Shown in pieces: positions 712 to 63,330 of a DNA stretch of 64,000 bases (the stretch's first letter is position 1; each line of letters begins with the position of its first letter). The notes below the pieces were generated by a model. It made no database searches. It saw only the letters and a program-made list of their open reading frames with translations, and had not been told where the DNA came from. A program made the position numbers and the translations under genes. This DNA comes from Nostoc sp. S4. Its GTDB lineage: Bacteria; Cyanobacteriota; Cyanobacteriia; Cyanobacteriales; Nostocaceae. The DNA lies in contig JAQYWR010000041.1 in the NCBI GenBank assembly GCA_029379225.1, forward strand, positions 1-64,000, in the 5' to 3' direction.

Positions 712-2241
712 TTAACGCAAACAACGAATCGCTTCTAATAGACCTCTAGCTTTATTGAGGGTCTCTTCGTATTCTTTTTCAGGTTCAGAATCAGCCACCA
801 AACCTGCACCAGCTTGTACGCTGACCGTGTTATTATGCACTACCATTGTGCGAATTGCTATAGCACTATTTAATTGCCCTTCAAAATCATAATATCCGTA
901 AACACCGGAATAAACACCCCGCCGACTAGGCTCTAACTCGTGGATAATTTCCATTGCCCTAATCTTGGGCGCACCGCTGACTGTACCTGCTGGAAAACAG
1001 GCTTTGAGTAAATCCCATGCTGTTTTACCAAGTGCTAATTTACCCACGACATTGCTGACAATGTGCATGACGTGGGAGTAGCGTTCAACTACCATTAATT
1101 CATCAACTTTGACGCTACCACTTTGACAAACACGCCCTAAATCGTTTCGTCCTAAATCAACAAGCATCACATGTTCGGCAATTTCCTTAGGATCTTGGAG
1201 TAAATCCTCGGCAAGAGCTGTATCTTGTTGGGTGGTTTTACCCCGTGGACGCGTCCCTGCGATTGGACGTAGAGTTGCGATCGCTCCACCATTTGGATCG
1301 GTTTCAGCTTTCACCATCACTTCTGGACTAGAACCGATAATTTGCCAATCTTGAAAGTGGAAATAAGCCATGTAAGGCGAAGGATTTATCTGACGTAGAG
1401 AACGGTAAAGAGCAAAGGGATCGCCTGTGTATGTTGTTGATAATCGCTGGGAAATAACTACTTGGAAGATGTCACCAGCTTTGATGTATTCTTTTGCCTT
1501 TTGGACGCCAGCACAAAAATCGGGACGAGTAAAGTTACTCTGATACTCCTCTGCTCCCTTGCTCCCCTGCTCTCCTGCTCCTCTGCTTCCTGGCGGCTTC
1601 CATTCCAGCCTAGTTTTTTGCGGTGATAGGGGGAGAGATAGCTTTTCGAGCATTTGGGTGACGCGATCGCCTGCTTGTTGATATGCTGCTTGGAAATCAA
1701 CTTTCGGGTCGCGTAAATCAGCATAGGCGACTGCCCAAATTTTTCGCTTCACCTGGTCAAAAATCAACAGGTGGTCTACCTGCATCCACAATCCATCAGG
1801 GATATTACGCTCATCTGGTGGATGAATTGGTACACGCGGCTCAATCCAGCGAATTAATTCATAGCCCCAAAACCCAAATAAACCGCCAATTCCTGGTGGC
1901 AACTGTGGTAATTTTACTGGGTGATAAGGTGCTAGGCATTGGGTTAAAGCCGTAAAAGGGTCGCCTGCAAAAACCACCTGTGAGCCATCGCGGTTGATTT
2001 GAGTCGTGCGATCGCCTCTTGCTTCCAAAACCCACACCGGATCGCAGCCCACTAAACTATAGCGTCCCAGTTTTTCTCCACCTTCTATGGATTCCAACAA
2101 AAAACTATAGGGCTGACCTGCACAGACTTTATACCAAGCGGATACTGGCGTATCTAAGTCTGCTACCCATTCCTGATATACCGGAACGAAGTTGCCTTGT
2201 GCAGCTAGCACAGAAAATTCAGAAAAATCGGGGAATACCAT
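712..2241 (-). CDS. trpE: Anthranilate synthase component I
   Basis: Full-length 509-aa ORF with chorismate-binding motifs (IAGTRPRGKT, DLGRNDLGRV, FPAGTVSGAPKIRAMEII, AGAGLVADSEPEKEYEET). Contains a low-complexity insert (see findings). Confidence 0.95.
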   Translation of the reverse strand: MVFPDFSEFSVLAAQGNFVPVYQEWVADLDTPVSAWYKVCAGQPYSFLLESIEGGEKLGRYSLVGCDPVWVLEARGDRTTQINRDGSQVVFAGDPFTALTQCLAPYHPVKLPQLPPGIGGLFGFWGYELIRWIEPRVPIHPPDERNIPDGLWMQVDHLLIFDQVKRKIWAVAYADLRDPKVDFQAAYQQAGDRVTQMLEKLSLPLSPQKTRLEWKPPGSRGAGEQGSKGAEEYQSNFTRPDFCAGVQKAKEYIKAGDIFQVVISQRLSTTYTGDPFALYRSLRQINPSPYMAYFHFQDWQIIGSSPEVMVKAETDPNGGAIATLRPIAGTRPRGKTTQQDTALAEDLLQDPKEIAEHVMLVDLGRNDLGRVCQSGSVKVDELMVVERYSHVMHIVSNVVGKLALGKTAWDLLKACFPAGTVSGAPKIRAMEIIHELEPSRRGVYSGVYGYYDFEGQLNSAIAIRTMVVHNNTVSVQAGAGLVADSEPEKEYEETLNKARGLLEAIRCLR

Positions 2242-2248
2242 AAATAGC

Positions 2249-2405
2249 TAGGGGGTTGTGGATTGGGGACTGGGGATTGGCGACTGGGCAAGGAAAAGAG
2301 GCAGAGGGGAAGGGGGCAGGGTGCAGGGAAGAAGCTCCTCCCCTCTGCTCCCTGCTCCCTGCTCCCTGCTTCTTCCTAATCTCTAATCCCCAATACCTAG
2401 TAATT
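2249..2405. repeat. Intergenic low-complexity/heptamer repeat tract (GGGGACTGGGGATTGG... and GCTCCCT tandem units)
   Basis: Read directly: ggggactggggattggcgactggg and tgctccctgctccctgctccctgct (7-bp unit GCTCCCT). Confidence 0.8.
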
Positions 2406-13140: not shown

Positions 13141-13215
13141 GATGGGGTATTGGGAGTGCTGAGTTAGGAGTTAAGAGTCGTTCTCCCCATCTCCCCCAGT
13201 CCCCAGTCCCCACTC
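13141..13215. repeat. Low-complexity intergenic repeat tract (ctccccatctcccccagtccccagtccccactccc)
   Basis: Same type of C/T-rich heptamer-like sequence as at 2249-2405. Confidence 0.65.
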
Positions 13216-13233
13216 CCACCCAGAACTCGATTT

Positions 13234-31036: not shown

Positions 31037-31288
31037 ATTTGGGATTAAGGACTAGGAAATAAGATTAAAAATCTTCTAATATCCAATTTTCAGTACTCAG
31101 TCCCTATTACCCCTTATCCCCAGAGGGGGCCCCACCTTCCCCAATCCTCAATCCCTAATACCAAAAACGCTTTGCTTTGATCCCTAAGATTAGAGTAAAG
31201 TAAACAAGTGTAAAGAAGTATGATTTTTCCAGTACTCTTTTAGAACAACTTGTTTACTTTTACCTTTGATATTTCTATAAAAACGTTC

Positions 31289-41224: not shown

Positions 41225-41770
41225 ATGTGGAAACGAATTGTATTAATTTTGCTATTGGTGTTGAGCTTCAGCCTGAGTAATTCTGGTGTCGCGGTTGCAG
41301 CCGGACTTAAAAGCTTTGTAGACACCAATGATGGCTATCAGTTTTTATATCCTAATGGCTGGCTGCAAGTTAAAGTTGCCGACGGCCCAGACGTAGTTTT
41401 TCATGATTTAATTGAGGTATCTGAAAATGTTTCTGTAGTAATTAGCCCAGTTCCAGAAAATAAAACCTTGGCACAATTGGGAACTCCTACAGAAGTAGGA
41501 TATAAATTGGGAAAAGCAGCTCTAGCACCTCCTGATTCTGGTCGTTCAGCTGAATTAGTCAATGCCGCGCAGCGAGAAGTAGACGGTAAAACATACTACC
41601 TTTTAGAGTACGAAGTTAAACTCCCCAATCAACAGCAACGACATAACATCACCAGCGTCGCTGTTAGCCGTGGTAAACTTTTTACCTTCAACGCCTCAAT
41701 TACTGAAAAACGTTGGCCAAAAGTAAAACAAACAATTGATGAAGTTGTAAATTCTTTTTCTGTTTATTAG
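41225..41770 (+). CDS. psbP: PsbP-family photosystem II protein
   Basis: Signal peptide ...GVAVAAGLKSFVDTNDGYQFLYPNGWLQVKV...VVFHDLIEVSENVSVVISPV. Confidence 0.88.
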   Translation: MWKRIVLILLLVLSFSLSNSGVAVAAGLKSFVDTNDGYQFLYPNGWLQVKVADGPDVVFHDLIEVSENVSVVISPVPENKTLAQLGTPTEVGYKLGKAALAPPDSGRSAELVNAAQREVDGKTYYLLEYEVKLPNQQQRHNITSVAVSRGKLFTFNASITEKRWPKVKQTIDEVVNSFSVY

Positions 41771-41771
41771 T

Positions 41772-41942
41772 CATTAATCATTAGTCATTGGTCATTAATC
41801 ATTAGGAGTGTTGAGTAGTAGAGACGCGATTAACCCTTGCCTGTACAAGAGTCAGGAGCGAGGAGTTATTCTCCTTGTCCCCTTGTCTCCTCTGCCTCTC
41901 TGCTCCCCTGCCCCTCATCTCCCCATCTCCCTCTCATCTCCT
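41772..41942. repeat. Short tandem (TCATTAG-type) and C/T-rich intergenic repeats
   Basis: tcattaatcattagtcattggtcattaatcatt, then ctccttgtccccttgtctcctctgcctctctgctcccctg. Confidence 0.75.
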
Positions 41943-52694: not shown

Positions 52695-54359
52695 ATGCAA
52701 ACATTGCTAAACAACCGCTATCGAGTTATTCGGACTTTAGGAAGCGGTGGGTTTGGTGAGACTTTCTTAGCGGAAGATACGCAAATGCCTTCCAACCGGC
52801 GTTGTGTAATTAAGCAGCTAAGACCAATTCAAAATAACCCGCAGATTTATCAGTTGGTGCAAGAAAGATTCCAACGAGAAGCAGCAATTTTAGAAGACTT
52901 AGGCGGTATAAGTAACCAAATTCCCACCTTATATGCTTACTTCCAATCAGATGGACAATTCTACTTGGTTCAAGAGTGGATAGAAGGTGATACCTTAACA
53001 GCGAAAGTCCACGAACAAGGGTTATTGAGTGAGAGTGCCGTTAGAGAAATATTAATACATTTATTACCAGTACTAGAACAAGTACACAATCACCGGATTG
53101 TGCATCGAGATATCAAGCCAGATAACATCATTTTGCGTCATCGAGACCATAAGGCGGTACTGATTGATTTCGGTGCTGTCCGCGAATCAATGGGAACAGT
53201 GGTGAATTCCCAAGGGTTACCTACAAGTTCGATTGTGATTGGTACGCCGGGATATATGCCAAGCGAACAAGCCGCAGGTAGACCAGTTTATTCGAGTGAT
53301 TTATATAGTTTAGGAATTACAGCAATTTATCTTCTTACGGGAAAACAGCCACATGAATTGGAGACAGATTCGCGTAGTGGAGAAATTATTTGGCACAGAT
53401 ATGCTTTGAGTGTTAGTCCTACATTAGCAGGAGTCATAGATCGAGCGATCGCCTATCATCCACGCGATCGCTTTGCCACAGCCAGAGAAATGTTTGACGC
53501 TTTACAATTTGGGTCAGTTCCTCCAACAGTACCTTACAATCAACCGCTAGTTCCGCCAACAACACCTTATAACCAACCACCAGTTCCGCCAACAGCACCT
53601 TACAATCAACCGCCAGTAGTGAGGGTACAGCCTCATGCAACATTACAAAATACGGTTGCTGTTAGTCCAGGTTCTTCCAGTCAACCTAGCAATCAAAGTA
53701 GTGGACACAAGGGAATCCTTCTGGGTAGTTTAATTGCTGGTGGTTTGATTGCTACTTCTATAGTTGTTGGTTTTGCTCTCAATAGACCAAATCAATCAGT
53801 AGTACAGTCAAACGTTTCATCGGAATCTACCCCAACTCCCAACGAACAGTCAACCATCTCATCGGAATCTAGCCCAACTCCCAAAGAACCACAGAATACG
53901 CCCTCACCTACACAATCTCCAATTTTCAGTACTTCCGAACCCCAAGATAATACACCAGTGCGATCGCAATTGCCTAGCGCTACCCAATCTCCTCAAACTC
54001 CCTTATCAACCCAGCCACAAATCAATAGACCTTCACCTGAAGAAGCGGTGCAAAATTATTATGCAACTATTAATCAGGGTCAGTATCAAGCTGGATGGAA
54101 TCAGCTATCTCCTAGCTACCAAAATAATCGACGACTTCACCCAAATGGTTATCTTTCTTATATTGACTGGTGGGGCGGAAAGGTTCAAAGCGTAGATGTA
54201 GAACAAGTTAGTTTAGTAGAAGCAAATACAGAATTAGCTACGGTTGATGCTCAGTTTAAATACGTGATGAAAACTGGCAAAATAGTTCCTGGTTCTGTAC
54301 GCTTTTTTCTTTTATGGGATGCCCAAAATAACAGGTGGGTTGTTAGTGATACCAAGTAG
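52695..54359 (+). CDS. Serine/threonine protein kinase (PknB-like) with TM and C-terminal extracytoplasmic domain
   Basis: LGSGGFGETFLAED, VIKQL, HRDIKPDNIILR, DFGAVRES, GTPGYMPSEQ; TM GILLGSLIAGGLIATSIVVGFAL. Confidence 0.93.
   Translation: MQTLLNNRYRVIRTLGSGGFGETFLAEDTQMPSNRRCVIKQLRPIQNNPQIYQLVQERFQREAAILEDLGGISNQIPTLYAYFQSDGQFYLVQEWIEGDTLTAKVHEQGLLSESAVREILIHLLPVLEQVHNHRIVHRDIKPDNIILRHRDHKAVLIDFGAVRESMGTVVNSQGLPTSSIVIGTPGYMPSEQAAGRPVYSSDLYSLGITAIYLLTGKQPHELETDSRSGEIIWHRYALSVSPTLAGVIDRAIAYHPRDRFATAREMFDALQFGSVPPTVPYNQPLVPPTTPYNQPPVPPTAPYNQPPVVRVQPHATLQNTVAVSPGSSSQPSNQSSGHKGILLGSLIAGGLIATSIVVGFALNRPNQSVVQSNVSSESTPTPNEQSTISSESSPTPKEPQNTPSPTQSPIFSTSEPQDNTPVRSQLPSATQSPQTPLSTQPQINRPSPEEAVQNYYATINQGQYQAGWNQLSPSYQNNRRLHPNGYLSYIDWWGGKVQSVDVEQVSLVEANTELATVDAQFKYVMKTGKIVPGSVRFFLLWDAQNNRWVVSDTK
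53520..53618. repeat. 33-bp tandem repeat (3 units) in STPK linker
   Basis: cctccaacagtaccttacaatcaaccgctagtt / ccgccaacaacaccttataaccaaccaccagtt / ccgccaacagcaccttacaatcaaccgccagta; encodes PPTxPYNQPxV. Confidence 0.85.
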
Positions 54360-61828: not shown

Positions 61829-61882
61829 TTAATAGTCATTGGTCGTTGGTCATTAGTCAGTCATTGGTAACTGATGAATGAC
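61828..61882. repeat. Short tandem TCATTGG/TTAGTCA repeats
   Basis: ttagttaatagtcattggtcgttggtcattagtcagtcattggtaactgatgaatgac. Confidence 0.65.
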
Positions 61883-62091: not shown

Positions 62092-63330
62092 ATGATTAAT
62101 ATACAGTTTGCAAAACGTTTACAACCTCTACAATCGAATGTATTTGCTGATATGGACAGAGCCAAAGCGCTTGCCTTGGCAGCTGGACAACAGCTAATTG
62201 ATTTATCCTTGGGGTCTTCTGATTTACCAGCCGAGGCACATGTCATTGACGCAATCGGCCAATCTCTTGGCGATCCTACTACCCACGGCTATCTGTTATT
62301 TAATGGTACTCAAGGCTTTCGCGAAGCCGCAGCTAATTGGTACGAACAAAAATTTGGCATCAGAGTCGATCCCCAAACTGAAGTACTACCTCTAATTGGT
62401 TCTCAAGAAGGCACAGCCCATTTACCCTTAGCATTGCTCAATCCGGGAGATTTTGCTCTGTTGCTCGATCCTGGTTATCCCTCTCATGCTGGAGGAGTTT
62501 ACCTCGCTAGCGGGCAAATCTATCCAATGCCATTACGCGCAGAAAATGGATTTTTACCAGTATTTGCCGATATTCCCGCCCCAGTCTTGGCTCAGTCGCG
62601 GATGATGGTGTTGAGTTATCCTCACAATCCTACTGCTGCGATCGCTCCTTTATCTTTTTTCCAAGAAGCTGTCGCCTTTTGTCAGCAACATAATCTCGCC
62701 TTAGTTCACGATTTCCCTTACGTGGATTTGGTATTTGCACGGACTGGGGATTCGGGACTGGCGACTGGGAAAGAGTTTTCCCAATACCCAATACATAATA
62801 CTCAATCCCTAGTGCCTTCAATTTTGCAAGCCGATCCAGGAAAAAGCATCTCCATTGAATTTTTCACTCTTTCTAAGTCCTATAATATGGGCGGCTTCCG
62901 TATTGGCTACGCCATTGGCAATGCTCAATTGATTAACGCTTTACGCCAGGTTAAAGCCGCTATTGATTTTAACCAGTATCGGGGTATTTTGAATGGGGCG
63001 ATCGCTGCCTTGACTGGGCCACAAATTGGAGTCAAAACCGCTGTCGCTACCTTCCAGCAGCGCCGTGATGCTTTTATTACTGCTCTACATTGCATTGGCT
63101 GGAATGTTCCCACTCCCCACGCCACAATGTACATCTGGGCAAAGTTGCCTTCTACTTGGAGTCAAAACTCTATAGAATTTTGCACTCAGTTAGTCAAACA
63201 AACTGGTATAGCTGCTTCCCCAGGTGCAGGTTTTGGTAAATCTGGGGAAGGGTATGTCCGTTTTGCCTTGGTACATGAGCCATCTTTGTTAGAAACTGCT
63301 GTGGAAAGAATGGCAAAGTTCCTCAACTGA
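62092..63330 (+). CDS. Class I/II aminotransferase, LL-diaminopimelate aminotransferase-like
   Basis: IDLSLGSSDLPAEAHVIDAIGQSLGDPTTHGYLLFNGTQGFREAAANWYEQKFG, SYPHNPTAA, FTLSKSYNMGGFRIGYAIGN (PLP Lys). Confidence 0.9.
   Translation: MINIQFAKRLQPLQSNVFADMDRAKALALAAGQQLIDLSLGSSDLPAEAHVIDAIGQSLGDPTTHGYLLFNGTQGFREAAANWYEQKFGIRVDPQTEVLPLIGSQEGTAHLPLALLNPGDFALLLDPGYPSHAGGVYLASGQIYPMPLRAENGFLPVFADIPAPVLAQSRMMVLSYPHNPTAAIAPLSFFQEAVAFCQQHNLALVHDFPYVDLVFARTGDSGLATGKEFSQYPIHNTQSLVPSILQADPGKSISIEFFTLSKSYNMGGFRIGYAIGNAQLINALRQVKAAIDFNQYRGILNGAIAALTGPQIGVKTAVATFQQRRDAFITALHCIGWNVPTPHATMYIWAKLPSTWSQNSIEFCTQLVKQTGIAASPGAGFGKSGEGYVRFALVHEPSLLETAVERMAKFLN

Follow-up and report, generated by a model that had tools for sequence, protein, structure and literature searches.

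A hypervariable in-frame slot in an aminotransferase of Nostocaceae holds different dispersed repeats in different species

The window, i.e., the whole analysed stretch of 64,000 nucleotides of Nostoc sp. S4 (contig JAQYWR010000041.1), carries at 62092..63330 on the + strand a coding sequence of 412 aa for a fold-type I PLP-dependent aminotransferase. In the profile search the protein matched NCBIfam NF005613 (LL-diaminopimelate aminotransferase, PRK07366) with 730.8 bits (cut-off, 486) and covered positions 1-389 of the 391 in the profile, so that the curated cut-off was exceeded over the full profile. The LL-diaminopimelate aminotransferase activity is nevertheless an annotation from sequence, and the substrate should be regarded as uncertain because the nearest solved relatives are 2dou, 2x5d, and BacF (6l1l). 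The reading frame is intact in the window genome and in every ortholog examined. One otherwise complete genome of the same genus (G008) had no aminotransferase match at E <= 1e-120, which may reflect a putative loss or disruption of the gene.

Inside this frame lies a hypervariable slot of codons 216-241 (62737..62814, + strand), which encodes the peptide ARTGDSGLATGKEFSQYPIHNTQSLV in the context HDFPYVDLVF-ARTGDSGLATGKEFSQYPIHNTQSLV-PSILQAD (predicted tryptic form, EFSQYPIHNTQSLVPSILQADPGK). An earlier sequence-only reading of the window had reported a repeat at 62740-62812, in frame in the aminotransferase gene, and both its position and its frame were confirmed. The three solved homologs align on both sides of the slot with about 20-25 residues missing, and the paralog from the same genome (L002) also aligns on both sides and has almost no insert; the segment is thus not an ancestral loop common to all homologs. 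The slot is the only insertion relative to the solved structures in the stretch from the strand HDFPY to PSILQ. It is a loop in the catalytic (large) domain, between the strand with the PLP-contacting residues D207/Y210 and K262, and not an interdomain linker, which corrects the earlier description of a protein linker. This position rests mainly on the gaps relative to the solved homologs because the AlphaFold model is of poor to moderate quality (mean pLDDT 66; 31-35 in the slot). The slot is probably a disordered loop, and we infer that it is surface-exposed and nearly neutral.

According to our analysis, the sequence that fills the slot here is a degenerate version of an inverted-repeat element dispersed in the genome, in which GGGGAYT heptamers are followed by a GGGAAAGAGTTTTCCC centre and then by CCCAATA heptamers. 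The G-rich arm of degenerate GGGGAYT heptamers occupies 62740..62769 (+ strand; sequence, word search, and genome copies); the palindromic centre, which also occurs in other copies of the element and in trpD, lies at 62767..62782 (+ strand); and the C-rich arm of CCCAATA-type heptamers extends over 62780..62811 (+ strand; 3.9 copies with 80% matches; TRF row 62780-62806, period 7). The centre is predicted to form a hairpin, and the predicted fold of the insert (-26.6 kcal/mol) is better than that of shuffled sequences (z = -3.07). The words of the insert are far above chance in both the window and the genome: GGGGATTGGGGACTGG with up to three mismatches has 10 matches in the window versus 0.21 expected, CCCAATACCCAATAC has 9 versus 1.42, and the exact double heptamer GGGGAYTGGGGAYTGG occurs 37 times genome-wide versus 0 for its reversed control. 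A genome search with the 111-bp slot region gave about 39 additional matches, partial or full (best E 1.9e-11), some 10 of which span most of the insert, whereas a control stretch of 111 bp from the same gene (62600-62710) gave no second genome match below E 0.1. This upholds the assignment of the segment to an intergenic-type repeat.

The best genome copies show the same anatomy, with G-rich heptamers, a GGGAAAGAGTTTTCCC-like centre, and C-rich heptamers. About 55 distinct sites of the GGGGAYT type were looked at in the genome, and 7 of them lay within plausible genes. Related heptamers are indeed present at the two sites previously offered for comparison, 2249-2290 and 31090-31165: a GGGGAYT copy outside predicted genes at 2258..2288 (+ strand; word search and TRF) and an intergenic CCCCAAT-type array at 31138..31159 (+ strand; TRF). 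A further intergenic array, of GGGGACT units, is found at 13194..13217 (- strand; word search and TRF). When searched as a strict pattern, the fixed palindromic core had no matches in a 2-Mb sample from ten genomes; it was found mainly in copies picked by similarity (9 of 60).

The comparison of orthologs showed that all internal indels of this protein of about 410 aa fall within reference positions 216-240, the single internal gapped block in an alignment of 48 sequences. Across 103 distinct orthologs the slot takes 28 length values from 4 to 67 aa, and none of them has a frame break in the slot (the single stop found precedes the start codon). In the genus of the window and in the named genomes, the contents between HDFPYVDLVF and PSILQAD differ. 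GGGGAYT (read as GDWGLGT or PIPNTQS, depending on the strand), CCCAATA, CCAAAAT (NPKSKIQ), ACCAATT (NYQLPIT), GCCCCAT (MPHAPCP), and GGGAGCA (GSREQGA) units were found, together with 8-bp arrays and at least five unrelated palindromic elements, e.g., those read as VRLSEAEV and CPERSRR. Even the six nearest genomes include both GGGGAYT and CCAAAAT types, and inserts of the same length are 70% identical versus 94% in the flank. At least 24 changes of content type were counted among 68 typed rows, an estimate from the best core tree, for which the slot was left out and in which many branches are weak and 31 of 100 are open. The flanks are under purifying selection (median dN/dS about 0.08, 435 pairs). 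Consequently, the single insertion assumed in the sequence-only reading stands as far as an in-frame repeat is concerned, but the site is a hypervariable one with different repeats in different Nostocaceae species and not the product of one recent insertion. As a separate observation, the contigs of L055 (G010) and L057 (G023) end within the slot, which is consistent with assembly breaks at repeats.

The properties of the repeat units explain how the frame can be kept. None of the slot repeat units has a stop on the sense strand, and an array of 7- or 8-bp units encodes, on each strand, the same repeating peptide whatever the phase; for instance, GGGGACT gives GDWGLGT, CCCAATA gives PNTQYPI, and CCAAAAT gives NPKSKIQ in all three phases. 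Therefore, only the total length has to be a multiple of three. Since about 69% of all heptamers are stop-free in this sense on a given strand, the trait is permissive rather than rare. In 2 Mb from ten genomes, where about 75% of the bases belong to ORFs, 27 heptamer arrays lay well inside ORFs versus 460 outside, whereas arrays of 9, 12, or 15 bp were split about evenly. It follows from this strong depletion that most insertions into genes are rejected and that the in-frame arrays are survivors in tolerant loops.

The aminotransferase is not the only gene affected. Similar inserts were found in the window's genome in TrpD, MutL, HpnB, an export ABC protein, a glycosyltransferase-like protein, MutS, and TrpE, in a tally that is partial at the genome-wide level. 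In trpE (ORF 712-2241, assigned by TIGR00564), an 8-bp-type repeat, CTCCCCTG, is read in frame as GSRGAGEQGSKGAEE at 1546..1591 (- strand; TRF), and TrpE of G014 has different content in the same slot. Slots comparable to that of the aminotransferase occur in TrpD, MenD, and TrpE; in the TrpD orthologs the slot behaves in the same way, with yet other, unrelated palindromes. The repeats of MutS, MutL, HpnB, and citramalate synthase were seen in single genomes only. The earlier suggestion that repeats have entered genes in frame recurrently is thus borne out by the aminotransferase, TrpD, TrpE, MenD, MutL, MutS, HpnB, and others. The more specific claim of three repeat types in three genes holds for the aminotransferase and TrpE. 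It does not seem to extend to a Ser/Thr kinase: the repeats at 53515-53617 and 53804-53889 have units of 33 and 42 bp, both divisible by three, and resemble the usual tandem repeats of coding sequence; the comparison used these two repeats, and their identity with the kinase originally meant is not certain.

Copies of the slot contents elsewhere in the same genomes indicate their source. The insert of G001 combines several repeat types and has at least 39 near-full copies elsewhere in its genome, the closest of them matching at 93% over 97 nt; the best of these (L199-L201) have their parts in the same order as the insert, and none lies within an ORF of at least 150 aa. The insert of G024 consists of a CCAAAAT array and a 24-bp palindrome and has 14 further strong copies in that genome (E <= 1e-9); in both G024 and G032 the palindrome is embedded in the CCAAAAT array, and further copies of this composite are spread over the genome. 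Because such composites recur elsewhere in the same genome, they are beyond the reach of local slippage alone. Full elements of the slot's own type (E <= 1e-5) numbered 12, 41, 22, and 18 in G000, G025, G012, and G007, whose slots are of the GGGGAYT or CCCAATA type, and 0, 1, 2, 4, and 12 in the remaining five genomes tested. That the slot content tracks the repeats of the host genome is only suggestive, because a cruder census of heptamers (200 kb from each of ten genomes) found no clear association with slot type and did not show the pattern of the whole elements. In our comparison set, which holds one genome per species, slippage, insertion, and conversion are indistinguishable.

Based on these results, we propose that a tolerant loop has become a standing site for dispersed repeats, renewed by slippage and by copying from the repeat pool of the genome and filtered by the reading frame and by the tolerance of the loop (probability about 0.85). 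The large-domain loop after the D207/Y210 strand and before the strand of the catalytic K262 would tolerate added residues, and in Nostocaceae it would have been turned into a site for the genome's own repeats. Turnover may proceed in two ways: 7- or 8-bp units may be gained and lost within arrays, and whole composite elements (heptamer arms with a hairpin centre, or a heptamer array with a 24-bp palindrome) may be copied from elsewhere in the genome by transposition or ectopic conversion. The 7-aa steps in length that are predicted from this were seen within the CCAAAAT type (17, 24, and 31 aa), but across all unequal cherry pairs they occurred in 2 of 16 (chance, about 2.3), which counts against the proposal. 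Selection would remove frameshifts and folding defects, and the remainder would be tolerated as a probably disordered loop. The identity of the repeats, the in-frame state of all orthologs, the turnover, the confinement of indels, the purifying selection on the flanks, and the extragenic composite copies are observed directly; which copying process acts is something that we infer. It is a tentative and rather doubtful extension that the repeat pool continuously rewrites the loops of core enzymes through ectopic gene conversion or transposition, so that the slots would evolve in concert with non-coding repeats and not with their own gene.

Another history would be a single insertion in the ancestor of Nostocaceae, followed by point mutation and local slippage only, without any later arrival of elements. 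It is true that nearly all genomes of the genus have slots of at least 16 aa that share the frame motif E-x-G-[DE]-W ... S-L-V, and the CCAAAAT-type lengths of 17, 24, and 31 aa could result from three heptamers being gained or lost locally. The palindrome-bearing composites that match extragenic copies part by part, the variety of unrelated palindromes in the slot, and the entry of unrelated palindromes into TrpD at its own slot mostly refute this history, and we regard it as unlikely. It is very unlikely that the slot is selected for a function such as interaction, regulation of activity, or solubility, with repeats recruited adaptively: the maintenance of at least 16 aa across nearly the whole genus and the polar, disorder-like peptides would agree with it, but length and content differ between close relatives, the divergence of same-length inserts far exceeds that of the flank, the other families of the order have slots of 4-20 aa (mostly <12), and the paralog has almost none.

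A role of the insert as nucleic acid, with an mRNA hairpin or a G-quadruplex tuning translation, is less probable again. The predicted fold and the formation of quadruplexes in vitro by GGGGAYT oligonucleotides (PMC4692102) could be cited for it, yet many orthologs, such as those of the CCAAAAT type or with short slots, lack either the G-rich arm or an inverted repeat, and the repeats are under-represented on coding strands according to Rehm et al. (PMC4692102). As for a pseudogene or an assembly artefact, contig ends within the slot are expected of repeats in short-read assemblies, and the missing match in G008 could be read in the same sense; however, the gene is intact in assemblies of few long contigs (G025, G007, G012, G014, and G019) and in all other orthologs, which, together with the low flank dN/dS, refutes this explanation and leaves its probability close to nil.

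The GGGGA(C/T)T heptamers of Nostoc are known as single-type intergenic quadruplex repeats, few of which are able to form inverted repeats; in Nostoc PCC 7120, 68% of their arrays are intergenic, which places some of them within genes (Rehm et al., 2015; PMC4692102). These repeats and the STRR sequences of heterocystous cyanobacteria resemble those described here in being dispersed and mostly intergenic, and the heptamer word is identical. The GGGGAYT repeat of the window genome shares the dispersal mainly outside genes; against the two or more exact GGGGATT or GGGGACT units of Rehm et al., the insert has one exact GGGGATT with degenerate neighbours, and relatives such as L099 conform more fully. 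Rehm et al. (PMC4692102) described neither a conserved enzyme that carries an inverted element nor a slot swapping repeat families between species, and both are seen here. The selfish-type palindromic elements of Rickettsia (Ogata et al.; reviewed in PMC10969869) also lie in frame in unrelated metabolic genes and are apparently tolerated by the proteins. Our data share with them the in-frame presence in conserved genes (those listed above, including MenD and citramalate synthase), but the Rickettsia elements are palindromes of about 150 bp with a conserved peptide of about 50 aa per family, whereas here many unrelated non-triplet arrays and short palindromes share one site and the slot peptides come from many unrelated families. 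Intragenic REPs of the GTAG and CGTC families are palindromes of 20-40 bp wholly within ORFs, many of them in DNA-repair genes, and in recB two Xanthomonas species carry different REPs at nearly the same position (PMC3733652). They are similar in both respects; however, they have no heptamer arms, and their shared site concerns one species pair, compared with more than 100 orthologs here. In the Nostoc tRNA-Leu(UAA) intron, the P6b loop is always occupied by either of two repeat motifs, and changes from one to the other have arisen independently and repeatedly (Kaasalainen et al., 2015; PMC4476775). It is likewise a tolerant Nostoc loop filled by repeats that shift in motif, but it is RNA and has no reading frame, while in the aminotransferase the frame filters the changes.

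Thus, the Nostoc heptamers and the in-frame palindromes of the Rickettsia and REP types are already known, and what is new here is the exchange of repeat families within a slot of a protein. No such slot acting across a bacterial family was found in the literature searched, the limited coverage of which makes this weak evidence of novelty. In-frame selfish repeats have previously been treated as a curiosity of Rickettsia or REPs; here more than 100 genomes show one site of a conserved enzyme passing from one repeat family to another, with no internal indels elsewhere in the protein. This suggests that new protein sequence in Nostoc cyanobacteria keeps arising from non-coding repeat DNA, and the slot allows a direct test of the old question of whether such DNA is a seed for new protein sequence or is just tolerated. 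In addition, insertions of this type are unreliable as phylogenetic markers in Nostocaceae proteins and cause breaks in short-read assemblies.

Several further observations were made. Intergenic heptamer arrays of a different family, GTCATTG / ATTAGTC, occur in the window at 41766-41805 and 61835-61859, and one such array separates a thioredoxin-like gene from the aminotransferase gene. The TrpD orthologs (L210-L228) have a second hypervariable slot before DTCGTGGDG, in frame in 19 of the 19 genomes examined and containing GGGGAYT/CCCAGTA arrays or palindromes such as AGACGCGATTAATCGCGTCT. MenD of G011 (L309:219-1976) and of G024 (L314:14498-16279) are 93% identical and differ in length by 10 aa only around the slot, with GCCCCAT-type heptamers in the former and CCCATTC-type heptamers in the latter. 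In G000, both MutS (L332:4984-7626, contig C53) and MutL (L161, contig C91) contain in-frame repeats, and the MutS repeat sits just before the ATP-binding GPNASGKS motif; it is conceivable that gain or loss of a heptamer in either gene would inactivate mismatch repair and act as a mutator switch. Finally, putative GltB-like proteins of G011 (L304) and G024 (L317) have N-terminal in-frame repeats of the TGACCAAT family (SLVISHP, GQMTNDQGQ).
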